A stretch of DNA of 64,000 nucleotides. Source: Xylophilus ampelinus (GTDB taxonomy: Bacteria > Pseudomonadota > Gammaproteobacteria > Burkholderiales > Burkholderiaceae_C). Under the pieces are notes generated by a model. It searched no databases. It saw nothing but the letters and a program-made list of their open reading frames with translations, and was not told where the DNA came from. The translations under genes were made by a program, and so were the position numbers. Below, one piece after another: positions 1 to 10,418 of the stretch. The stretch spans positions 1 to 64,000 of the forward strand of contig NZ_QJTC01000014.1 in NCBI RefSeq assembly GCF_003217575.1, written 5' to 3'. Position 1 is the first letter of the stretch. Each line of letters begins with the position of its first letter.

Positions 1-399
1 CCTGATCTGGTCATCTTTGTAGTTTCCTGGACTTGGAAACTCATGGATAACCATTCGTCAACTTAGTTCGGCTTATTTTTGAGACACCACACTAGGTCCC
101 AGATAGAGGTCCATGCCGAATCAACAGCTTAGCGTCGACCGTCTCACTAAGTCCTGAATCGCTGTCTCATCCAACGTTAAACAATCGGTTGTCTGTAGCG
201 CTCAACGTTGAAGTTTTGTACCCGCGTGGCCCCTCGTACCCTTTCTAACCTGCCGAACGGGCAGCAGCCCCATTTGTTTGCGGGCCAACTTCCATGGAAA
301 TTGACGGAGCACCCTAACGTCGACATCTTCCTCCCCTCGATTGGTCCAGCGTAGTGGCGCTGCCGCGTCCATATGGAAATGCGAGAATCTGAGGCAGCT
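1..399. other. Gene-less left flank of the defence cassette
   Basis: No convincing coding sequence is seen on either strand. Base composition is clearly more AT-rich than the core genes further right, matching the methyltransferase it precedes. A 7-bp perfect inverted repeat (AGTTTCC at 21-27, GGAAACT at 35-41, 7-nt spacer) is present and could be a regulatory site. The stretch presumably holds the promoter of the methyltransferase gene. The island boundary on this side is outside the window. Confidence 0.5.
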
Positions 400-1494
400 A
401 TGTCCGCAGAATCCAACTCTAACTTGCCTGATTTGACTCGCATTGAAGGTGTCGACCTATTTTGTGGTGCCGGAGGTCTTTCGTTTGGCCTCGCAGCGCA
501 AGGGGTTCGCGTGGTTGCCGGAATCGACGTCGACCCGGCCTGCCAGTACCCGTACGAGGCCAACCACGAGGGCGCCAAGTTCCTGCTGCGTGACATCACG
601 ACGGTCAGCGGCGAGGAGCTGAACAAGCTCTGGTCGCCAGGGGCCTTGCGATTGCTGGCCGGATGCGCCCCCTGTCAGCCCTTTTCCAGCTACGCTAACA
701 CCGCGACAGTGGATAAAGCCAAATGGCGTCTACTGAGAGAGTTCGCCCGCTTGGTAGACGAAAGCCGACCGGACTTGGTCACCATGGAGAACGTTCCCCG
801 GCTGCAGCAAGAGCAACCGTTCAAGGACTTCTTGCGCGTCTTGAAGAAGGGCGGGTATCAAGTGGCCTATGCCGTGTTGAACGCAGCGGACTACGGCGCA
901 CCGCAACAGCGCAAGCGGCTGGTGCTGGTCGCTTCACGACTCGGTCCGGTAGCCGTGCCGGAGCCTACTCACAAGGGTAGCGACAACTGGGTGACGGTAC
1001 GCCAGGCCGTTGGCCACCTCAAGAAACTCACGGATGGTCAAGCCAGCAAAGCCGACCCCTTGCACATTGCCTCGGCGCTGTCAGATCTCAACCGAGCACG
1101 GATTCGTGCTAGCAAGCCTGGCGGCACTTGGCGAGACTGGCCCCAGCAATTGGTAGCAGCTTGCCACCAGCGCGAGAGTGGCAAGCACTCTTCAGGCGTG
1201 TACGGCCGCATGGAGTGGGACAAGCCTGCCCCCACCATGACAACTCTGTGCAACGGCTACGGTAACGGCCGCTTCGGACATCCGGAGCAACACAGGGGTA
1301 TCTCCTTGCGGGAGGCGGCAATTTTTCAGTCCTTTCCGGAGACTTACCGCTTCGCCCGCGAAGGCGAAGCGGTGACTGTCAAAACGGTTGCCAGACTGAT
1401 CGGCAATGCTGTCCCGCCGAAGCTTGGCGAGGCGGTAGCCCGGGCACTTTATGCTGCGGCAGCCACCGCTGGCGCCGCAAGAGCCGGCGGCTGA
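400..1494 (+). CDS. dcm: DNA (cytosine-5-)-methyltransferase
   Basis: Transfers a methyl group from S-adenosylmethionine to C5 of cytosine in a specific DNA site. All diagnostic motifs are in order in the 364-aa product: motif I VDLFCGAGG (res 18-26, SAM binding), motif IV GCAPCQPFS with catalytic Cys92, motif VI ENV (130-132), motif VIII QQRKR (169-173), then a target-recognition region of about 110 residues, and motif X IGNAVPP near the C-terminus. An in-frame ATG exists at 373, but the ATG at 400 follows GAGG with a 5-nt gap and is preferred. The 3' end overlaps the convergent HEPN gene by 46 bp. With vsr and DUF262/HEPN genes beside it, this is a restriction/defence methylase rather than an orphan housekeeping enzyme (inference). 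Recognition sequence cannot be read from the sequence. Codon use is less GC-rich than in the core genes. Confidence 0.93.
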   Translation: MSAESNSNLPDLTRIEGVDLFCGAGGLSFGLAAQGVRVVAGIDVDPACQYPYEANHEGAKFLLRDITTVSGEELNKLWSPGALRLLAGCAPCQPFSSYANTATVDKAKWRLLREFARLVDESRPDLVTMENVPRLQQEQPFKDFLRVLKKGGYQVAYAVLNAADYGAPQQRKRLVLVASRLGPVAVPEPTHKGSDNWVTVRQAVGHLKKLTDGQASKADPLHIASALSDLNRARIRASKPGGTWRDWPQQLVAACHQRESGKHSSGVYGRMEWDKPAPTMTTLCNGYGNGRFGHPEQHRGISLREAAIFQSFPETYRFAREGEAVTVKTVARLIGNAVPPKLGEAVARALYAAAATAGAARAGG

Positions 1495-2207
1495 GCCAAG
1501 TAGCGCCGACTCTGCAGATAGCCGTCGACTTCAGCGGCGATCTTTCGCAGGGTGTCGAACACTGCCAAGGAGTCGACTTCCAAGGTGGGCACCGAGAGAT
1601 CTCGGCCTAGGTCGGTAAAGCTTTTTTCTCCATGGGCAAGCTCGTTGCGGTTGGTTTTGACCTTCTGAAGAGCTGCGTCCGTCAAGTGCGCAGGCGGTCG
1701 GTCGTTGGGGGTTTGGGCCACCACGCCAAACTTCTTGAGTTGCTCGTAAAAAACTAGGCTATCGACGCTGCCCGAAATACCGTCAACGCGCTTATCCTTG
1801 CCCGAGGTCCGACTCTTCCAATCGTCCATCCAGTACCGGAACAGGCTCGTATGAAGCGGCGAAGCGGATGACAGCACTGTAGATTTGGCGTCCTTTTTGA
1901 CGGTTCTCAAAACCACGCGGAGCAGCTGGGCATTGAGGGCATCGGCACTGGAGCAGTTGGCGCCTATAGCATCGTGCATCTCGTCCAACAGTTGAACCAA
2001 TGTGGCTTCCATGGCGCTGTACAGCAGCAGCACAAGGTTGGCCTTTAGGGTATGGGTGAGCTCAAGTGTCAGCGCGAGCTGCAGCTCTCCATCTTTTGCG
2101 CTGAGCACAGCACGCCGCTCAACTGCCACCTTCAGGAAGTTCAGATAGGCAGTTATTTCGATGCTTCTTTGGCTTAGAAGATCATCCGTAAGCTGAACTT
2201 GGCTCAT
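1449..2207 (-). CDS. HEPN-like nuclease, MAE_28990/MAE_18760 family
   Basis: Product of 252 aa, mostly helical. Residues 60-95 contain a stretch typical of this HEPN family (LLYSAMEATLVQLLDEMHD), and res 187-192 read RNELAH, matching the R-x4-H signature of catalytic HEPN ribonucleases. HEPN nucleases are metal-independent RNases in toxin-antitoxin, abortive-infection and restriction systems; that role here is inferred. The gene is second in a two-gene unit: its ATG overlaps the DUF262 stop by 4 nt, so translation is probably coupled. The C-terminal Ala/Pro-rich tail (about res 236-252) is read antisense to the methylase motif X region, so the two genes physically overlap tail to tail. Low-GC composition suggests transfer together with its neighbours. 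Confidence 0.8.
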   Translation of the reverse strand: MSQVQLTDDLLSQRSIEITAYLNFLKVAVERRAVLSAKDGELQLALTLELTHTLKANLVLLLYSAMEATLVQLLDEMHDAIGANCSSADALNAQLLRVVLRTVKKDAKSTVLSSASPLHTSLFRYWMDDWKSRTSGKDKRVDGISGSVDSLVFYEQLKKFGVVAQTPNDRPPAHLTDAALQKVKTNRNELAHGEKSFTDLGRDLSVPTLEVDSLAVFDTLRKIAAEVDGYLQSRRYLAQPPALAAPAVAAAA

Positions 2208-3400
2208 TGAAAAAGCCCCTTTTGGGCGGGACTGGCCTCATCCTCTGGCAGGTCCGGCGGCGAATCTGCGTTGGCGCTGGCCTCTACCTCGGCAGTGCCA
2301 GGATCCTCGACAAACGCTTTGCCCAGCAGGTTGTCCCGCACGTAATGAATACGGTTGACGAGTTTGGGCCGTGAATTGCTGGCGTCTGAGCGGGTGTGCT
2401 TGATGAACTCGTTGCTATCTAGCCACTGGCTAACGTCGCCAGGAATGAGGCCCGAATTCTCTCGAAGCGCAAGCGATACCCCGACAGCGATAGCTTCGAA
2501 GCGAATGCGAGGCACCGTCTTGTAACCAGTTCGCTTGAAGCCGTTTGGAAAGTGTTGAGAAACAAAATCGAGCATGCGGACAAACTCAGCATGCATGGCT
2601 TCCTTATCCGCATCGAGAAAGTTATCGTTTTTGCTTTTGAGATAATCGGTCAAAAAGTCATCCACACTTTTCTGAAAGCCCTGATAGTTATTGAGATAAG
2701 AAAAATACCGCAAAACGAATTCCTCGTACTCCTTGCGCTTAGCGTTGCGATCGCTTAAAGGAACAAGTTTTTTAAACTGTTCGTTGGCGGCACATTCAGT
2801 GACAAACGTCATGAACGGCCCATCCACAACGCCTCGCCGGACCTCCATAGTCGTGAGGGGAGTTCCTCCTGAATTAAGGCGGTCGAACATCTCACGACGA
2901 GCATCCTCGTCCGCCTTCTCCGTGAGTTCAATGACGCGTACAGTCGTGCGCTTGAATCGCATTTGTCGCGGCTTGCTGAGATCGAAAAATCGCATGCCGA
3001 TGGCCTGAGTGAGCTTCTTGAGGCCCACCAGCTCTAATTTGTTGGCAAGGAAATTATCCAAGGTTCGAATGCGTTGAGAACCATCAATGATTTCCAAGGC
3101 GCCCTCTCTATCACCTTGCCCGACATCGGCCGCGAAGATAAATGGCACCGGCAGTTTGATGAGGATTGACTCAATAAACCGAGACTGTTGCCTCGGAGTC
3201 CATACCATATCGCGCTGATAGTCAGGAATAAAAATTTCTGACTCATCGGTTTCTCGACCGTTAGTGAATTTCTCAACCAAAACACCGATTGGCCACTCTT
3301 TGATTTCGTAATCGGTGATCTTCTGCAGCTCTTCAATTTGCTTGTCAACGAAGATTGCACGTTCGCTGTCCGCCAACTGCAGTTGTTCATCCTCAGCCAT
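2204..3400 (-). CDS. DUF262 domain-containing protein (GmrSD-N/ParB-like)
   Basis: Product of 398 aa. The DUF262 hallmarks are visible: IPDYQRDMVW (res 58-67), a variant of the PxxQRxxVW box; IIDGSQRIRTL (104-114), a variant of DGQQRLTTL; and FDRLNSGGTPLT (172-183). DUF262 is the N-terminal domain of the GmrSD family of modification-dependent restriction enzymes and belongs to the ParB/sulfiredoxin fold; it is proposed to bind or hydrolyse NTPs. No GmrD-like DUF1524 HNH motif is visible in the C-terminal part, so nuclease activity would have to come from a partner such as the overlapping HEPN protein (inference). ATG at 3400 is chosen because GGGAG lies 5 nt upstream; an in-frame TTG lies at 3412. 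First gene of the DUF262-HEPN unit, divergent from vsr. Confidence 0.85.
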   Translation of the reverse strand: MAEDEQLQLADSERAIFVDKQIEELQKITDYEIKEWPIGVLVEKFTNGRETDESEIFIPDYQRDMVWTPRQQSRFIESILIKLPVPFIFAADVGQGDREGALEIIDGSQRIRTLDNFLANKLELVGLKKLTQAIGMRFFDLSKPRQMRFKRTTVRVIELTEKADEDARREMFDRLNSGGTPLTTMEVRRGVVDGPFMTFVTECAANEQFKKLVPLSDRNAKRKEYEEFVLRYFSYLNNYQGFQKSVDDFLTDYLKSKNDNFLDADKEAMHAEFVRMLDFVSQHFPNGFKRTGYKTVPRIRFEAIAVGVSLALRENSGLIPGDVSQWLDSNEFIKHTRSDASNSRPKLVNRIHYVRDNLLGKAFVEDPGTAEVEASANADSPPDLPEDEASPAQKGLFQ

Positions 3401-3439
3401 AATTTCTCCCAAAGTGCAAAATCAGTCGAAAAATTATCA

Positions 3440-3459
3440 AGTCATTTACATAAATGACT
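3440..3459. promoter_or_regulatory. Perfect 9-bp inverted repeat in the DUF262/vsr intergenic region
   Basis: AGTCATTTA, 2-nt spacer CA, TAAATGACT: a 20-bp operator-like palindrome about 40 bp upstream of the DUF262 start and 134 bp upstream of vsr. It sits in AT-rich DNA suitable for a promoter. Symmetry and size fit a dimeric repressor or controller protein, but no such gene is visible next to it. Confidence 0.55.
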
Positions 3460-3593
3460 CCATGTCGCTTGCTGGGAAACTGATCCTTCGGATATTAACC
3501 GGTTGGTTGCATGGCCGCACGGGCAGCAAGAAGCGGATCACTGTTGCACTTCCGCATTCGGTTCCGCAGTGGCATCTGCTGTAGTCTTGATGC

Positions 3594-4022
3594 ATGGATA
3601 CTCTTTCACCAGAAGACCGATCCGCACTCATGAAACGTGTGAGGCGTGCGGACACCAAGCCGGAGGTCACACTCCGCAAAGCACTTCATCGGCTAGGGTT
3701 CCGCTATGTCATCGGCGACAAGCGATTGCCGGGTACGCCGGACTTGGTTTTTCCGAAACACAGGGCAGCAGTGTTTGTCCATGGATGCTTTTGGCACGGT
3801 CATGAATGCCGCCAAGGCCGTGTACCAAGTTCCAACGTGGACTACTGGGCGCCCAAAATCGTGGCCAACCGCGCTCGCGACGCTCGCAAGGAGCAGGCTC
3901 TACGCGATCTTGGCTGGCGAGTCTTCACCGTCTGGGAATGCGAGTTGAAAGCAGCGTCGCTATCGGTGTCAGTCGGACGCTTGGCTGCTGCGCTGCACGA
4001 GGTGCCAAAAGAGATTGCGTGA
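3594..4022 (+). CDS. vsr: Very short patch repair endonuclease
   Basis: Nicks 5' of the mismatched T in T:G mispairs arising when 5-methylcytosine deaminates, starting very-short-patch repair at the partner methylase's sites. The 142-aa product has the family architecture: RSALMKRVRRADTKPE (res 9-24), LPGTPDLVFP with the catalytic Asp50 (res 45-54), FVHGCFWHGHEC (61-72; zinc and active-site His/Cys residues), and GWRVFTVWECEL near res 107-118. Length is standard. It lies on the same strand as the methylase but is separated from it by the oppositely oriented HEPN/DUF262 pair, so the latter look inserted into, or co-evolved with, a methylase-vsr unit (inference). No strong Shine-Dalgarno sequence precedes the ATG. 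Confidence 0.93.
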   Translation: MDTLSPEDRSALMKRVRRADTKPEVTLRKALHRLGFRYVIGDKRLPGTPDLVFPKHRAAVFVHGCFWHGHECRQGRVPSSNVDYWAPKIVANRARDARKEQALRDLGWRVFTVWECELKAASLSVSVGRLAAALHEVPKEIA

Positions 4023-4102
4023 ACCAGTCGAGATAGCAATATTCCCGCTTTACGCACCGCGATTGGTGCGGCGAGCCCAAGCGTCAAGCGACGCCCAGGC
4101 GA

Positions 4103-4143
4103 GTTCCAAGTTAAGCGCAAACAGTTCCCAACTCAGCGCAAAC
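4103..4143. repeat. Tandem 21-bp repeat, possible transposon-end scar
   Basis: Two direct copies of a 20-bp unit: GTTCCAAGTTAAGCGCAAAC at 4103-4122 and GTTCCCAACTCAGCGCAAAC at 4124-4143 (17 of 20 bases identical), period 21. Multiple internal repeats of about 20 bp are typical of the ends of IS21-family elements, whose genes are absent here. The position, between the low-GC cassette and the first core gene, fits a relic of the island's right boundary. The IS21 assignment is from memory of such ends and is not proven. Confidence 0.4.
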
Positions 4144-4239
4144 CGACACCGAGTGTGCAGCGAGGACCGGAGCCGTACTTGGGTACGGTGAGGACCGCAG
4201 GCGCTCAATCGGGCCGCGCAGTAGGTTCTCTCACACCTT

Positions 4240-5544
4240 TTAGTGGATGGTGGTGTCGTGGGTGCGGTCCCGGACGAAGAAGGCGGCGACCAGGCCCACG
4301 CCCACCCCGAACATCACGTAGTACGCCGGCGCCATCGGCGAGCCCGTCGCGCGGATCAGCCAGGTGACGATGAACTGCGCGAAACCGCCGAACACCATCA
4401 CCGCGATGTTGTAGGCGATCGACATGCCGAGCGAACGTACGTTGGCCGGGAACAGTTCGGCGACGACGGTGCTGAACACGCCGAAGTACACCGACACGAA
4501 CACGCAGATCGACAGCTGCGCCACCAGCAGCCGGGTGATCGACGGCTCGGCCGTCAGCCAGGCGTAGGCGGGGTACAGCACCAGCAGATAGCCGATCAGC
4601 GAGCCGATCATCAGCGGCCGGCGGCCGACGCGGTCGGACCAGGCGCCCATGATCGGCATCAGCACGATCATGAAGGCGGCGCTGGCCATCTGCACCAGGA
4701 AGGTGTCGCGCAGCGGCAGCTTCAGCGTCACCGTGCTGAAGGTGGTGAGGTAGGTGAAGGTGATGTAGATCGACACCGTCAGCGTCACCACCAGGCCCAT
4801 GCCGACCAGCGTCTCGCGCAGATGGCTGCGCAGCATCTCGCCCAGCGTCGCCTGGCGCACCGTGCCGGCCGCCTGGGCGGCCTTCATCTGCTTGAAGGCC
4901 TCGGGTTCCTCCACGTGGCGGCGGATGTAGATCGCCACCGGCACGATCAGCAGGCCGAAGGCGAAGGGCAGGCGCCAGGCCCAGGCCATCAGCTGCTCTT
5001 GGGTGAAGATTTCGGTGATCAGCGTGCCGGCGGCCGCCCCCAGCAGCAGGGCGACCATCTGGCCGGTCATCTGCCAGGAGCCGTAGAAGCCGCGCCGGCC
5101 GGGCGGTGCCATCTCGATCAGCAGCGCGGTGGAGGTCCCGAACTCGCCGCCGGCGGCGAAGCCCTGCAGCAGCCGCGCCAGCACGATGAAGAGCGGCGCC
5201 AGGATGCCGACCGCCGCGTAGGTGGGGGCCAGGGTGATCAGCGCGATCGCCACCGCCATCAGGCCGGTGACCATCACCATCGCGGCCTTGCGGCCCTTGC
5301 GGTCGCCGTAGAGGCCCAGCACGATGCCACCCACCGGCCGCATGAAGAAGCCCACCCCGAAGACGGCGGTGGTCAGCAGGATCTGGTTGATGTTGTTGTC
5401 GGGATCGGCCGGGTTGCTCGGGAAGAACAGCTTGGCCACGATCGGCGTCATGAAGGCGAAGGCCAAGAAGTCGTACCACTCCAGAGCATTGCCGATGACG
5501 GCCGCGAGGATGCTCTTTTTCCGGGAAGCAGCGTTTGTTTGCAT
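4240..5544 (-). CDS. MFS transporter, metabolite:H+ symporter (MHS) family
   Basis: Inner-membrane permease of about 434 aa with 12 predicted TM segments. The N-terminus carries the MHS signature IGNALEWYDFLAFAFM, followed by GVGFFMRPVGGIVLG and the loop 2-3 motif GDRKGRKAAM; RLLQGFAAGGEFGTS is the next family hallmark. Members import citrate, alpha-ketoglutarate, proline/betaine, shikimate or related organic acids; the substrate cannot be told here. ATG at 5544 (MQTNAASRKK) is preferred over an in-frame start at 5595 because MHS proteins begin shortly before the IGNALEWYDF motif. It is monocistronic. A run of nine G lies 19 nt upstream of the chosen start. Confidence 0.88.
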   Translation of the reverse strand: MQTNAASRKKSILAAVIGNALEWYDFLAFAFMTPIVAKLFFPSNPADPDNNINQILLTTAVFGVGFFMRPVGGIVLGLYGDRKGRKAAMVMVTGLMAVAIALITLAPTYAAVGILAPLFIVLARLLQGFAAGGEFGTSTALLIEMAPPGRRGFYGSWQMTGQMVALLLGAAAGTLITEIFTQEQLMAWAWRLPFAFGLLIVPVAIYIRRHVEEPEAFKQMKAAQAAGTVRQATLGEMLRSHLRETLVGMGLVVTLTVSIYITFTYLTTFSTVTLKLPLRDTFLVQMASAAFMIVLMPIMGAWSDRVGRRPLMIGSLIGYLLVLYPAYAWLTAEPSITRLLVAQLSICVFVSVYFGVFSTVVAELFPANVRSLGMSIAYNIAVMVFGGFAQFIVTWLIRATGSPMAPAYYVMFGVGVGLVAAFFVRDRTHDTTIH

Positions 5545-5562
5545 GGGATTTCGCTCGGAGTT

Positions 5563-5571
5563 GGGGGGGGG
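5563..5571. repeat. Homopolymeric G9 tract
   Basis: Nine consecutive G on the + strand (C on the coding strand of the MFS gene), within its leader. Such tracts are slippage-prone. Here it would alter leader spacing, or, if translation begins at 5595, the reading frame. Confidence 0.6.
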
Positions 5572-5780
5572 CTGCGCGCGGAAAAGCGCACGCACGCCGG
5601 AGGCGATGTCGGATCATGCCTGGAGACAGGGGTGCCACGACACCGTGGTGCTGCCATATGTCCGTATGCATAGGCATGCGGCATGCCACCGTCCCGCTGT
5701 CGGCAGTGCCCGGAAAAGCGGCGATTCCGCCGCTTGGTATCGGCTTTGGAACCATGTCGAACATGTTGTACCCGGGCAAT

Positions 5781-5859: not shown

Positions 5860-6468
5860 ATGAGAGCCCTTCGATCCGCGTCCGGCATGTACCGTTTTTC
5901 TCATCGGAGGCGGCATTGCGCGATGGCCGCCGCGGCCCTGGGCCTGCTGGCCGCGGGCGGCAGCCCGGCCGCGACGCTGACGGGCGAGCTGGTCTCCACC
6001 ATCACGCTCAGCACCGGCTGCCTGATCGTCAACGGCGTTACCGGGGCGAGCAACAACGTCAACCTGGGAACGCTCGATTTCGGCTCGCAGCCCTCCACCT
6101 TCCTCGGGCAGATCGCGGCCACGGTGACCGGCGGCAGCGGTGGCTCGGGCGTCACCCAGGTGCTCTGCTCGCCCGAAGTATCGGGCCTGACGATCACGGT
6201 CAACGGCGGCGGCCATGCCGGCTCCGGCACCGCCATCGGGCCGGGCAGCAGGGCGATGAGCAACGGCAGCGCCTTCGTGCCCTACGAGATCTACCAGGAC
6301 GCGGGCCACACCGCCACCTACGCGATCGGCCAGCCGCTGGGCGTGACGATTCCGGCCGCCGGGTCGGCCTTCAACCTGCCCATCTACGGCCTGGTCAACA
6401 AGACCAGCGCGTCGGCGTTGCCCTCGGGCACCTACGTCGACACGGTCATCGTCACCCTGACTTTCTAG
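5860..6468 (+). CDS. Spore coat protein U domain pilin subunit (Csu-type)
   Basis: Structural subunit of an archaic chaperone-usher pilus of the Csu type. The 202-aa product has a basic N-terminus and a hydrophobic stretch (about res 20-38, ending SPAA), then one SCPU domain. The family cysteine pair is visible in STGCLIV and VLCSPE, and the C-terminus ends SGTYVDTVIVTLTF, the donor-strand-type last beta strand. A Shine-Dalgarno sequence (TAGGAGA, 5848-5854) precedes the ATG. It is the first gene of a five-gene operon with 3-nt spacing to the next. It is secreted through Sec, folded by the periplasmic chaperone and assembled by the usher encoded downstream. Which Csu subunit (major or minor) it corresponds to is not certain. 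Confidence 0.85.
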   Translation: MRALRSASGMYRFSHRRRHCAMAAAALGLLAAGGSPAATLTGELVSTITLSTGCLIVNGVTGASNNVNLGTLDFGSQPSTFLGQIAATVTGGSGGSGVTQVLCSPEVSGLTITVNGGGHAGSGTAIGPGSRAMSNGSAFVPYEIYQDAGHTATYAIGQPLGVTIPAAGSAFNLPIYGLVNKTSASALPSGTYVDTVIVTLTF

Positions 6469-6471
6469 CCT

Positions 6472-7110
6472 ATGGCCGGCGCACCGGAACCCGCATCCCG
6501 GCTGCAGCAGGATTTCCACCATGTGGCGGCACCTCTCCCCGGCGAACCCCTGGCGGCACGATGCGCGGCGCGGCGCACGGGGGGAGGAGCGACGCCGCTG
6601 CTGTGCATCGCGTCGCTGGCCCTGGCGCTGCATGCCGTCGCGGCGGTGCAGGTACCCACCACCGCCACCTTCGCCGTGGGCGCCACCATCGCGCCCGGCT
6701 GCCAGGTGGCGTCCAACCCGGCGCAGTTGAGCGGGCTGCAGATCGGGCGGCTGGATTTCGGGCTGCATTCGGCGATGCAGTCGGGCACTGTGAGCGTGCC
6801 GCTGTTCAGCACCGCCGACCAGTCGCTGGTGCAGTGTACGCCGGGCATCACGATGCAGGTGACGGTCGACGCGGGGCTCAATGCCAGCGGCATGCAGCGC
6901 CGGCTCCACAACGGCAACGGCGTCTACCTGCCCTATGCGCTCTTCATGACCACCGGCGGCAACCGGCCGTTGGTACCGGGATCGCCTTTGGGCGTGGTGC
7001 TCGGCGCGTCGCCCACCGCGCTGCCGGTGATGGGCATGGTGACCTTGCCCGGCGCCGGCGCGGTAGCGGGCACCTACACCGACACGGTGCGTGTCACGCT
7101 CTCTTGGTAG
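6472..7110 (+). CDS. Second spore coat protein U domain pilin subunit; start uncertain
   Basis: The 212-aa frame encodes an SCPU domain: cysteines in APGCQV and VQCTPG, and a C-terminus GTYTDTVRVTLSW like its upstream paralogue. The signal sequence core is TPLLCIASLALALHAVAA, but it sits behind about 42 residues of unlikely leader if translation begins at ATG 6472, which has no ribosome-binding site. An ATG at 6521 is preceded by AGGA (8-nt gap) and begins a basic n-region, but lies in another frame; a one-base deletion in the G6 run at 6579-6584 would explain this. So the gene is either frameshifted (sequencing or slippage) or uses a poor start. Role: pilus subunit exported and assembled with its neighbours. 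Confidence 0.72.
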   Translation: MAGAPEPASRLQQDFHHVAAPLPGEPLAARCAARRTGGGATPLLCIASLALALHAVAAVQVPTTATFAVGATIAPGCQVASNPAQLSGLQIGRLDFGLHSAMQSGTVSVPLFSTADQSLVQCTPGITMQVTVDAGLNASGMQRRLHNGNGVYLPYALFMTTGGNRPLVPGSPLGVVLGASPTALPVMGMVTLPGAGAVAGTYTDTVRVTLSW

Positions 7111-7117
7111 GCCCGGC

Positions 7118-7996
7118 ATGAGCGCTCCGGCACACCCGCTTCCCGGACGCGCCGCATCGGCGCTGCGCCGGGGCGCCGCCGCGCTGCTGCTGGGACTGGC
7201 CGGCGGCCGTTCCGGAGCCGTCTCGCCGATCATGATCTGGCCGGTCGATCCGGTCATCGTGGGCGAGCCGCAGGCGGTGGCGCTGTGGATCGAGAACCAG
7301 GGCGACCAGCCGATCGCGATGCAGGTGCGCGTCTTCGGTTGGGAGCAGCCGCAGGGCGAGGACGTGCTGGCGGCGCAGCAGCAGGTGATCGCCAGCCCGC
7401 CGATCAGCAGCATCCCGCCGCGCCGGCGGCAGATGGTGCGGCTGATCGCCACCCGCCCCGCGCCGCCGGGCGCCGAGCAGGCCTTCCGGGTGGTGGTGGA
7501 CGAGCTGCCCGGCACCGCGTCGCCGCCGCTGCCCGCCTCGGCACCGGCAGCCGACGGCGCCGTGGCCGCGCAGACAGCGGCCGCCGCCCCGGCCGGCGCT
7601 GCGGTGAACCTGCAGATGCGCTACTCGGTGCCGCTCTTCCTCTACGGCCCCGACGCGCGCCCCGACAAGCCCCTGCCCAGCACCGGCGCCGGCGCCCGCC
7701 GAACCGCAGCGCCGTCGCAGGTGCTGGAGCCGAAGCTCGACTACCGGGTGGTGCGCACCGCCGCCGGCCGGCCGGCGCTGGCGATCCGCAACCGCGGCAC
7801 CGCCCACGGCCGGATCACCCTGGTCGACTGGGTGGCCGACGGCCGGCCGCCGGTGGCGGTGAACGCCGGCCTGCTCGGCTACGTGCTGTCCGGCCAGCGG
7901 ATGCAGTGGCCGCTGGAGAAGGAGCCGCCGCCCGGCCATGGGCTGCAGGCGACGGTCAACGGCCGCACCCTGGCGCTGCCGCATGGGGCCGACTGA
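7118..7996 (+). CDS. Fimbrial periplasmic chaperone (CsuC-like)
   Basis: Binds unfolded pilin subunits in the periplasm by donor-strand complementation and hands them to the usher. Product of 292 aa: signal peptide over about res 1-33, then the chaperone N-terminal domain with ISPIMIWPVDP-type first strand, ALWIENQGDQPIAMQVRVFGW, and the conserved IPPRRRQMVRL segment, which supplies the basic residue anchoring the subunit C-terminus, followed by FRVVVDELP. A Pro/Ala-rich linker (about res 132-160) precedes the second Ig-like domain. ATG at 7118 is chosen; an in-frame ATG at 7091 would overlap the upstream gene. The end overlaps the usher start by 14 nt. Confidence 0.85.
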   Translation: MSAPAHPLPGRAASALRRGAAALLLGLAGGRSGAVSPIMIWPVDPVIVGEPQAVALWIENQGDQPIAMQVRVFGWEQPQGEDVLAAQQQVIASPPISSIPPRRRQMVRLIATRPAPPGAEQAFRVVVDELPGTASPPLPASAPAADGAVAAQTAAAAPAGAAVNLQMRYSVPLFLYGPDARPDKPLPSTGAGARRTAAPSQVLEPKLDYRVVRTAAGRPALAIRNRGTAHGRITLVDWVADGRPPVAVNAGLLGYVLSGQRMQWPLEKEPPPGHGLQATVNGRTLALPHGAD

Positions 7997-10418
7997 GCCC
8001 CGGGCGGTGCGGGCACCCTTCCATGCGCGACGCCTTCCCGCACTGGTGCTGTGCCTGTGCCTGCCGCGGCTGCTGGCGGCCGACACGCTGGTGCCGCTGC
8101 CGGACACCGGTGCCGAGCCGGTGCCGCTCTACCTGGAGCTGGTCGTCAACGGGCGCGCCAGCGGCGAGGTGGTGCCGGTGACGCAGCGCGGCCACCACTA
8201 CGAGATCGAGGCCGAGCTGCTGCGCCGGCTGCACGTGCGGAACAGCCGCCCGGCCGGCAGCCGCCTGGCGGTCGACGGCCTGCCGGGTGTCGCCACCGAG
8301 TACGACGGCCTGGGCCAGCGCCTGCTGATCACCGTGCCGACCGACTGGCTGCCGCTGCAGGCCTTCGACACGCCGCCCCACCTGCGCCGCGCCGAACTGG
8401 CCGACGGAGCCGGCCTGCTGCTGAACTACGACGCCTATACCGCCACCTCGCGCGGCAGCAGCCTGCGCTCGCTCTGGACCGAGCAGCGCGTCTTCGGACG
8501 GCTGGGCTCACTGTCGAACACCGGCCTCTACCGCAGCACCCGCGACGGCACCGCCGACGGCTACCTGCGCTACGACACCCGCTGGACCCGGGTCGACCCC
8601 GACGACGCCAGCCAGCGCGTCGTGGGCGACGTGGTCACCGGCGCGCTGCCCTGGACCAGCGCGGTGCGGCTCGGCGGGGTGCAGTGGTCGCGCAACTTCG
8701 GCATCCGGCCCGACCTGGTCACCTACCCGCTGCCGCAGTTCGCCGGGCAGGCGGCGGTGCCCTCGGCGGTGGACCTGTTCGTCAACGGCTACCGCGCAGC
8801 TGCCCGGCCGGTGGAGGCCGGGCCGTTCAGCCTGGGCGAGCTGCCGATCGTCAACGGCGCCGGCACCGCCACCGTGGTCGCCACCGATGCGTTGGGCCGC
8901 CAAGTGCTCACCGCGCTGCCCTTCTACGTCAGCCAGCAGCTGCTGCGCCCGGGCCTGGTCGACTATTCGTTCTCGGCCGGCGCGCTGCGGCGCGGCTACG
9001 GCCTGCGCAGCGTCGGCTACGGCCGGGCCGTGGCCAGCGGCGTGGTGCGGCAGGGCTGGAACGACGGCCTCACCGTCGAGGCGCAGGCCCAGGTGGGCCG
9101 CGGGCTGGCGGTGGCGGGCATCGGCGGGCTGGTGAAGGCCGGGCTGCTGGGCACCCTGAACGCATCGCTGAGCCGGGGCCGGGCCGATGCGGGCGGGCCG
9201 GGTGTGCTGCCCGCATTCGCCAACGGCAACCCCGATGCCGGCCGGGGCGGCTGGCAGTACAGCGCCGGCTACCAGTACACCGGCACTGTCGGCAGTGTGT
9301 CGCTGCAGCAGATCGGCCGCACCGCCGCCTACGGCGACGCCAGCACATATGCCGACGACGGTTTCCGGCTGCAGCGGCGCACCCGCCAGCTCTCGGGCAG
9401 CCTGCCCGTCGGCCGCGGCTCGCTCGGCGCCGGCTGGGTCGATCTGCAGGGCGGCATCGCCGGCGGCCGCACCCGGCTCGCCTACGCCAGCTACAGCCGG
9501 CCGCTGAGCGACCGGGTCTACCTGTCGATGACCGCCGGCCGCACGGTGGAGACCGGCGACACCCAGGTGCGGCTGCAGCTCACCTACATGCTCGATTCCC
9601 GGGCCAGCGTCTCCACCGCGGCGGTGCGCGGCAACGACAGCACCCGCGCCCAGGCCACCTACCAGGATGCGGTGCCGTCGGACGGCGGCTTCGGCTGGAA
9701 CATCACCCAATCGCTCGGCGGCGACAGCGCCGAACGCTACCGCGCCGCCGCGGTGCAGTACCGCAACGACCTGGCGCTGGTGCAGGGCGGCGTCTACGGC
9801 ACCGGCGACCAGACCGCACGCTGGGCCGGCGCTTCCGGCTCGCTGGGCCTGATGGACGGCCACGCCTTCGCCGCCAACCGCATCGGCGACGGCTTCGCGC
9901 TGGTCTCCACCGGCGGCGTGCCCGACGTGCCGGTGCGCTTCGAGCAGCAGCTCATCGGCCGCACCGACGCGCAGGGCTACCTGCTGGTGCCGCAGGTGCC
10001 CGCCTACCGCAGCGGCCGCTACGAACTCGATTTGCTCGACCTGCCGGCCGACCGCTTCGCGCCGATCACCGAGCGTCAGGTGGCCGTGCGCGGCGGCATG
10101 GGCGCGCTGGTCGAGATCCCGGTGCAGACGCTGCGCTCGGCCACCATCGCGCTGGTCGACGCGCTTGGCGTGCCGCTGCCGGTGGGCACGCCGGTGCGAC
10201 ATGCCGAGACCGGAACCGACACCCTGGTGGGCTGGGACGGCGTGGTCTTCCTGAGCAAGATGCAGCCGCAGAACACGCTGCTCGCCCGGCCGCAGAACGG
10301 GCCGCTCTGCCTGGCCGGCTTCTCGGCCCGGATGTACGACGAGGCGGGGCTGCGGCAGGTGGCGTGCCGGCCGCGGGTGCAGGGCGCGGCGGATGCCGCC
10401 GCGGGAGGTGCGCGGTGA
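7983..10418 (+). CDS. Outer-membrane usher protein (CsuD-like)
   Basis: Forms the outer-membrane pore through which chaperone-subunit complexes are assembled into the pilus. About 811 aa, the usual size. It has a signal sequence (LPALVLCLCLPRLLAADTL), an N-terminal chaperone-binding domain, then a long beta-barrel region rich in alternating strands with the usher motifs FVNGYRAAARPVEAGPFSLGEL-type (split here: VDLFVNGYRAA and GPFSLGELPIVNGAG), a plug region, and two C-terminal domains (QGYLLVPQVPAY, then a FSARMYD segment). The start at 7983 (MGPTEPRAV) overlaps the chaperone stop, suggesting coupling; an earlier in-frame ATG lies at 7938. The stop overlaps the next start (TGATG). Confidence 0.9.
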   Translation: MGPTEPRAVRAPFHARRLPALVLCLCLPRLLAADTLVPLPDTGAEPVPLYLELVVNGRASGEVVPVTQRGHHYEIEAELLRRLHVRNSRPAGSRLAVDGLPGVATEYDGLGQRLLITVPTDWLPLQAFDTPPHLRRAELADGAGLLLNYDAYTATSRGSSLRSLWTEQRVFGRLGSLSNTGLYRSTRDGTADGYLRYDTRWTRVDPDDASQRVVGDVVTGALPWTSAVRLGGVQWSRNFGIRPDLVTYPLPQFAGQAAVPSAVDLFVNGYRAAARPVEAGPFSLGELPIVNGAGTATVVATDALGRQVLTALPFYVSQQLLRPGLVDYSFSAGALRRGYGLRSVGYGRAVASGVVRQGWNDGLTVEAQAQVGRGLAVAGIGGLVKAGLLGTLNASLSRGRADAGGPGVLPAFANGNPDAGRGGWQYSAGYQYTGTVGSVSLQQIGRTAAYGDASTYADDGFRLQRRTRQLSGSLPVGRGSLGAGWVDLQGGIAGGRTRLAYASYSRPLSDRVYLSMTAGRTVETGDTQVRLQLTYMLDSRASVSTAAVRGNDSTRAQATYQDAVPSDGGFGWNITQSLGGDSAERYRAAAVQYRNDLALVQGGVYGTGDQTARWAGASGSLGLMDGHAFAANRIGDGFALVSTGGVPDVPVRFEQQLIGRTDAQGYLLVPQVPAYRSGRYELDLLDLPADRFAPITERQVAVRGGMGALVEIPVQTLRSATIALVDALGVPLPVGTPVRHAETGTDTLVGWDGVVFLSKMQPQNTLLARPQNGPLCLAGFSARMYDEAGLRQVACRPRVQGAADAAAGGAR

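Follow-up and report, generated by a model that had tools for sequence, protein, structure and literature searches.

A recurrent, mobile module of C5 methylase, DUF262 and HEPN genes with optional vsr in Xylophilus ampelinus

Which of the four genes at the left end of a Xylophilus ampelinus contig belong together, and what might they do? The window analyzed here is the first 64,000 nucleotides of contig NZ_QJTC01000014.1 (assembly GCF_003217575.1). In it, + strand genes for a C5-cytosine DNA methyltransferase (hereafter methylase) and a Vsr mismatch endonuclease flank − strand DUF262 and HEPN genes, transcribed in that order, and all four are complete. The original prediction read them as a single four-gene defence system. 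Here we determined that the coherent unit is three genes (methylase, DUF262, and HEPN), that vsr is optional, and that the methylase link belongs to one clade. The module is mobile and recurrent. We put at roughly one in two the probability that it is a restriction-modification-like abortive defence module, in which the methylase marks, DUF262 senses, and HEPN stops the cell.

Plasmids, phages, IMG/VR, and genomes were searched with HEPN or DUF262 as bait, giving 180 loci with DUF262 and 115 representatives at 90% identity; two loci (L073, which is a representative, and L074) were instead retrieved with a DNA query spanning the methylase as well. Part of the plasmid and phage matches were opened. 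The IMG/VR relatives are the best 80 of 130, and since the methylase search described below likewise used the best 80 of 347, both lists favour close kin. IMG/VR scans with two narrow alignments (A1 and A2) returned no relatives, and wider queries found some. Representatives were classed by DUF262 bit score (A, at least 345; B, 240–345; C, below 240), with limits set after the scores had been seen. A C5 methylase was counted within 3 kb and a HEPN gene within 300 bp, and rows with too little room or short open reading frames (ORFs) were dropped (four from class A, two from B, five from C). Class A has 69 representatives; all 65 that could be judged have HEPN, 58 have a C5 methylase, and four have Vsr. 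Class B (10 representatives, 8 judged) has HEPN in 8/8 and the methylase in 1/8, and class C (36 representatives, 31 judged) has HEPN in 2/31 and the methylase in 2/31. The recurrent co-occurrence of methylase and DUF262-HEPN pair, which the original prediction expected from a neighbourhood search, is therefore present, and because the two recur together in 58/65 representatives, a functional link between them is likely.

The methylase usually faces the pair. In class A, 49 methylases are convergent, 5 are downstream and co-directional, and 4 are upstream. A second count, in which representatives were picked by completeness, found the methylase in 60/67; since only rows with HEPN were admitted, it says nothing about the HEPN fraction. 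In 50 of these 60 the two genes converge and their tails lie no more than 104 bases apart; the tails overlap in 37 of the 50. Vsr was present in 5/67 (the window, L019, L022, L113, and L180). The five nearest relatives, from a scan of GTDB contigs with HEPN, each combine HEPN with a methylase that faces it. DUF262 is complete in four of them and cut in the fifth (L005). The neighbours of the four listed loci differ, and tblastn at 1e-4 found no Vsr beside any of the five. The four-gene unit was rejected on these Vsr counts, together with the lack of Vsr in all 25 IMG/VR methylase clusters that adjoin DUF262-HEPN.

Co-inheritance is also visible in the DUF262 tree. Across its 80 rows, 3 changes suffice to account for the 57 that have the common C5 type, compared with a shuffled mean of 20.2; starred branches force at least 2 of them. 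L019, L046, and L154 have another C5 type, and L057 is cut. L042 and L043 (347 and 354 bits) are above the class A limit, yet lie in a methylase-less group of the tree. Drawn as sister of the methylase-linked clade, on a long branch, is L065, from another genome of the same order of bacteria, in which DUF262-HEPN is followed by an N4/N6 methylase (5962–8950; N6_N4_Mtase, 1.8e-37). Distances over 60 rows correlate at r 0.88 for DUF262-HEPN, 0.45 for DUF262-methylase, and 0.48 for HEPN-methylase, with 0/2000 permutations as high. The variable gene order and the substitute methylases suggest that role, rather than linkage, is conserved between methylase and pair.

Relatives were found in proviruses, plasmids, and genome contigs. 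In P2-like E. coli prophages, the module has the portal gene on one side and the replication endonuclease gene on the other (five records opened). P2-like phages are described as carrying defence hotspots in a passage of PMC9122126. The prophage version occurs in 7/5426 E. coli genomes, and in all 7 a methylase is annotated within the matched region. An L018-type pair occurs in 9/5426, 8 of them with most of the query, and L018, the sole one opened, has no adjacent methylase. Nine Moraxella phage records match, one of which was opened. Relatives are also carried by a Klebsiella linear plasmid and by Roseomonas, Phaeobacter, and Rhodococcus plasmids. On Polaromonas pPNAP06 we found the methylase frame even though it is missing from the gene table, and Rhizobium pTi932 has DUF262, HEPN, methylase, and vsr in one row.

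Feature positions are collected in Table 1. The four predicted ORFs are all present and confirmed by Pfam (PF00145, PF18737, PF03235, and PF03852), with the DUF262-HEPN pair in opposite orientation between methylase and Vsr, as predicted. The methylase call was right apart from its start; the ORF begins at 373, and position 400 is an internal ATG in the same frame. The proposed translational coupling of DUF262 and HEPN is a fair inference, since stop and start overlap as ATGA.

Table 1. Features of the cassette and its edges in the window.
Feature	Position	Strand	Details
C5-cytosine DNA methyltransferase	373..1494	+	373 amino acids; alternative start at 400; Pfam PF00145 E 4.6e-57
Methylase/HEPN tail-to-tail gene overlap, 46 bp	1449..1494	.	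ORF ends
HEPN_MAE_28990 protein, probable RNase	1449..2207	-	252 amino acids; R187-x4-H192 (RNELAH)
ATGA, DUF262 stop overlapping HEPN start	2204..2207	-	sequence
DUF262 / GmrSD_N protein	2204..3412	-	402 amino acids from TTG; ATG at 3400; motif IDGSQR
Divergent intergenic stretch DUF262/Vsr, 48% G+C	3413..3593	.	
Vsr mismatch endonuclease, accessory	3594..4022	+	PF03852 E 1.4e-30
Stretch common to multi-copy element	1..95	.	10 other assembly places at 99-100%
Right edge of stretch missing from same-genus genome	4149..4150	.	collinearity comparison with G557

The window HEPN protein matches PF18737 (HEPN_MAE_28990) with E 5.2e-11 and 43.6 bits, above the curated cut-off of 26.8, and reaches 25.4 bits against PF18735, under the cut-off of 28.4. 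The two families overlap; of 30 HEPN relatives, 29 match PF18737 and 24 match PF18735 at 0.01. R187 and H192 are invariant in 28/28 aligned homologues, and the protein is a probable RNase. Its partner is not an MNT nucleotidyltransferase of the HepT-MntA type, being GmrSD_N, and no nucleotidyltransferase was found among the four proteins. The DUF262 protein matches GmrSD_N (PF03235) at E 6.3e-28. GmrSD_N was found in 30/30 members, and no second Pfam family, DUF1524/HNH included, was found in any of the 30 at 0.01. The DGxQR core is invariant, and the window motif IDGSQR has a Ser in place of the first Gln of the (I/V)DGQQR-like motif.

All of the methylase motifs are present (DLFCG, PCQP with C101, ENV, QxRxR, and GNAVPP). 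Its recognition region, between motifs VIII and IX, is conserved like the rest, with a mean top-residue share of 0.65 versus 0.64 (57/60 rows, three of another C5 type set aside). The whole genome has 7 PF00145 matches in six places, two being on one frame, so that several C5 methylases exist in addition to the one in the cassette. Vsr is 37% identical to E. coli Vsr, and D50, H63, and H68, which we take to be its catalytic residues, are invariant in four aligned sequences. As predicted, no classical restriction endonuclease is apparent, with nothing above the curated cut-off among the four cassette proteins. The PADLOC REase_II model PDLC03418 ("Type II restriction enzyme") weakly matches DUF262 proteins, at 3.6e-6 for the window and 6.2e-12 for L018. 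The cassette shares the DNA methylase with type II restriction-modification, and for a cognate restriction endonuclease it offers this weak DUF262 match.

The same methylase type is also found beside other effectors. Using its alignment as IMG/VR bait, we obtained 52 clusters, of which 25 adjoin DUF262-HEPN (none with Vsr), 17 adjoin a GHKL protein (6 with Vsr), 4 adjoin a DISARM-type helicase (2 with Vsr), and 6 have none of the three (3 with Vsr); L256, counted in the last group, has a GHKL-domain neighbour by Pfam. Proviral examples beside a DISARM-type helicase or GHKL protein are L236, L248, L289, L261, L296, L226, and L253. Three of the helicases match PADLOC DrmA and DrmD at over 1400 bits. 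Five GHKL-type neighbours are confirmed by Pfam, from which we read this group as probable paraMORCs, and L261 matches the REase_II model PDLC03419 at 9.8e-92. GHKL/paraMORC operons with cytosine methylase and Vsr appear in a 2008 account (Iyer et al., PMC2292703); their effector is a GHKL protein rather than DUF262-HEPN. Unlike DISARM, the window has no Drm helicase among its four proteins, and DrmA, DrmB, and DrmD are absent from their best PADLOC matches (for the methylase, the best 25 of 62). The window methylase itself matches PADLOC DrmMII at 4.1e-85. The motif of DISARM DrmMII is CCWGG, which was therefore considered as the methylated motif. It was dropped because E. coli Dcm lacks the recognition-region signature and no paper in the open-access literature searched mentions both, and we claim no motif.

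The recognition-region consensus is alike across the DUF262-HEPN, GHKL, and DISARM groups, the last sharing the signature as well, although the strict signature is missing in 3/25 DUF262-HEPN and 7/17 GHKL clusters. DUF262-HEPN thus fills the place of a probable restriction component in sister systems, and this is the main indirect argument for its proposed role. A broader and more tentative possibility, which we hold to be doubtful, is that one C5 methylase family with an unchanging recognition region provides the self-mark for at least three unrelated effector types (DUF262-HEPN RNase, GHKL/paraMORC-like protein, and DISARM), all of which would read one motif; the DUF262-HEPN form would then be a restriction-modification system that punishes by RNA cleavage.

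Parts of the module resemble described systems. Table 1 of Anantharaman et al. (2013, PMC3710099) lists the MAE_28990 HEPN gene as operonic with "a ParB nuclease and DNA methylase genes", and the same paper suggests that HEPN proteins encoded in restriction-modification loci act as suicidal RNases. The window shares the PF18737 HEPN, the ParB-superfamily partner, the DNA methylase neighbour, and the Rx4-6H motif; its methylase is convergent and so is a neighbour, not part of a strict operon. The MAE_28990 table line names no system and does not mention orientation, clade, or Vsr, nor a fixed type of methylase or carriage of the set by prophages. PD-T4-2 is also a DUF262 and HEPN (PF18735) pair according to the relevant passage of PMC10952713, and its deletion raised T4 plaquing in the native strain as summarized in Vassallo et al. 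(2022, PMC9519451). The window DUF262 matches PD-T4-2_A at 2.6e-35, with PADLOC NsnA, its best model, scoring higher (9.6e-54). The NsnA model has no description, and no phage paper on this name was among the literature matches listed. PD-T4-2_B has 168 positions, no PADLOC model matched the window HEPN at E 1, and the descriptions of PD-T4-2 in these passages mention no methylase. The type IV and phosphorothioate-sensing proteins GmrSD, BrxU, and SspE share the DUF262 sensor fold and DGxQR-type motif but carry a DUF1524/HNH nuclease, whereas the window DUF262 has no such Pfam domain and is paired with HEPN. In GmrSD and BrxU the nuclease is DUF1524 and both act on modified cytosine, as stated in PMC10952713, and SspE relies on host DNA modification in the account of PMC9646914.

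A search of open-access literature found no paper with DUF262, HEPN, Vsr, and methyltransferase together, most subscription literature and bioRxiv falling outside it; DUF262 appears with HEPN in two papers and MAE_28990 in one. The original prediction knew of no named system with exactly this set, and we also found no such name. It overstated the novelty, however, given the HEPN neighbourhood in PMC3710099 and the known PD-T4-2. The combination was listed in print in 2013, and we found no experimental test of it in the open-access literature searched.

For the abortive module that we prefer, we propose that the C5 methylase would mark one fixed DNA motif of the host. DUF262, a likely ParB/sulfiredoxin-fold NTPase (nucleoside triphosphatase) sensor without its own HNH nuclease domain, would survey DNA and switch when it meets a wrong mark or context, either because incoming DNA has the motif unmethylated or because a phage disturbs methylation. 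DUF262 would then release HEPN, which would cleave RNA and halt the infected cell. Vsr would be optional, serving the methylase as a partner in repair. The data show the gene set, its co-inheritance and mobility, intact motifs, and likely folds; the association counts, the tree, the distance correlations, and the fold matches given below speak for this reading, and PD-T4-2 and SspE are precedents.

Several results in the distribution of the genes weigh against this reading. The Fisher p of 1e-15 for class A versus class C overstates the difference, because the threshold was set post hoc and related rows are not independent. In an even phylum draw, PF18737 was found in 15/398 genomes, the window's included, and DUF262 adjoins HEPN in 12/15 of these matches, but a C5 methylase adjoins only 2/15 (the window and G409). 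In this draw the pair is thus mostly found with no C5 methylase beside it and does not always need one as a neighbour. Homologues found mostly without a methylase, which the original prediction had named as evidence against itself, are therefore characteristic of the wider PF18737 family and not of this clade (58/65 with one). In a class draw, 5/369 genomes match, the window's included; 3/5 have the methylase, L057 runs off its contig, and L051 has none beside it. The tree also holds a five-row clade without an adjacent methylase (L018, L051, L173, L182, and L213). Finally, a frameshifted methylase accompanies an intact pair in the P2_4B2 record, where it is two ORFs, and in 1/5 opened E. coli copies, though this may be sequencing error. 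The frameshifted loci are L014 and L074, and the near-identical L337 and L338 are annotated as intact. We dropped the frameshift as proof of a methylase-free pair, as it concerns one of five opened E. coli copies (of seven) and P2_4B2.

The structure models give both support and cautions. For neither protein did Foldseek return a match at E 0.001, the best rows for DUF262 being ParB and SspE at 0.006–0.02. A VIA second look was more informative for both. With the HEPN model (predicted local distance difference test, pLDDT, 91.7), the first 13 rows are HEPN-fold chains with Z 6.4–7.6 and MntA-HepT on top, but helical-bundle Z below about 13 can reflect common arrangements. Among these rows, 6m6u, 7bxo, and Csm6 are presumably HEPN-fold chains. 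Nine rows were assigned by title and 1jog via the table in PMC3710099. The DUF262 model (pLDDT 84.8), built from a 399-amino-acid stretch, aligned to BrxU with Z 9.3, residues 32–371 onto chain residues 1–431; the match is in pieces, as the root-mean-square deviation (rmsd) is 12.5 over 295 residues. SspE aligned over 134 residues at rmsd 3.4 and Z 8.0, and ParB CTPases (cytidine triphosphatases) gave Z of about 7–7.6. Sequence searches of solved structures returned nothing useful for HEPN. For DUF262 the single sequence returned mostly ubiquitin, and the profile returned BrxU and SspE, weakly.

Four rival explanations were weighed. DUF262, possibly with HEPN as a subunit, could itself cut DNA and leave HEPN as a second line, making the locus an ordinary restriction-modification system. 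The name "ParB nuclease" in the PMC3710099 table, the weak PDLC03418 matches, and the REase_II match of the GHKL neighbour L261 beside the same methylase type all point this way. Since GmrSD_N is the sole Pfam domain in 30/30 members, and the fold matches NTPases and BrxU chain residues 1–431 while the BrxU/GmrSD nuclease is DUF1524 (per PMC10952713), we regard DNA cutting as unlikely. Sharing of an island by chance, with a methylase-Vsr pair beside an unrelated DUF262-HEPN pair, would fit the presence of Vsr in 11/52 methylase clusters, none of those 11 with DUF262-HEPN. It is disfavoured, and highly improbable, given a C5 methylase in 58/65 close but 2/31 distant DUF262 loci and five nearest relatives that all have methylase and HEPN, four with complete DUF262 and those listed being in different neighbourhoods.

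Two further explanations retain the pair as an effector and change what the methylase does. DUF262-HEPN may be a toxin that is restrained by the methylase or monitors it and fires when a phage attacks it, as in PrrC-EcoPrrI or PARIS-Ocr. Passages of PMC3710099 propose HEPN release once restriction-modification subunits are neutralized, PARIS is triggered by an anti-restriction protein according to PMC9122126, and the methylase/HEPN tail overlap (37/50) could couple expression. However, pairs without an adjacent methylase exist, another methylase class can substitute (L065), and the co-variation of methylase and pair (r 0.45–0.48) is weaker than the 0.88 inside the pair, so we give such a guard little chance. 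Alternatively, DUF262-HEPN may act like a type IV system on foreign modified DNA, with the methylase just shielding the mobile element from host restriction and becoming a neighbour in prophages by selection. Many relatives do reside in proviruses and plasmids. The cytosines of T4 are modified. PD-T4-2 protects against T4 as reported in part of PMC9519451, and GmrSD/BrxU DUF262 proteins act on modified cytosine as noted from PMC10952713. This explanation also seems improbable to us, as a 5-methylcytosine sensor would read the resident mark, and the tie between methylase and pair in genome contigs, over deep divergence, exceeds a neighbour effect.

With this analysis, what was a one-line table entry of 2013 becomes a recurrent module of three defined genes whose gene content, typical orientation, and carriers are quantified, and its P2-like E. 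coli prophage version is testable at once in laboratory strains. If the abortive reading is true, a toxin that cleaves RNA would be governed by the methylation state of DNA, with no DNA restriction involved. The recognition region common to the GHKL and DISARM neighbours would then make the one-mark question directly testable.

The cassette stands out from its surroundings, as the original prediction noted. The G+C content of 1–4149 is 0.551, compared with 0.702 in the remaining window, and none of 558 other segments of this size is as low (minimum 0.668). This applies to the right flank alone, since the left end of the window coincides with the contig start. The first ~95 bases have 10 other assembly matches at 99–100%, three of which start where a contig does, and are probably an insertion sequence where the assembly broke. 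In G557, a genome of the same genus, collinearity at 91% starts at 4150 and extends to at least 7376, while nothing to the left of 4150 is matched. None of the four cassette proteins was found in 11.5 kb taken from G557, nor PF18737 anywhere in that genome. Recent acquisition is the simplest reading, with loss in G557 as the alternative.

The right edge has features of its own. The stretch 4023–4149 has no match in the plasmid collection and matches itself alone in the genome. Just inside the edge, at 4102–4143, are two tandem 21-base copies, 81% alike, which may be where a mobile element, since lost, ended. A dispersed ~90-base repeat at 4149–4239 starts at the right edge of the stretch missing in G557; its RNA fold is no better than shuffles (z −0.49). 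It has 34 matches in this genome, including itself, and at least 31 further copies in a same-genus genome. Beyond it are a major facilitator superfamily (MFS) transporter gene (4240–5595) and an adjoining chaperone-usher cluster (5860–10418) comprising two spore coat U proteins, a PapD-like chaperone, and an usher.

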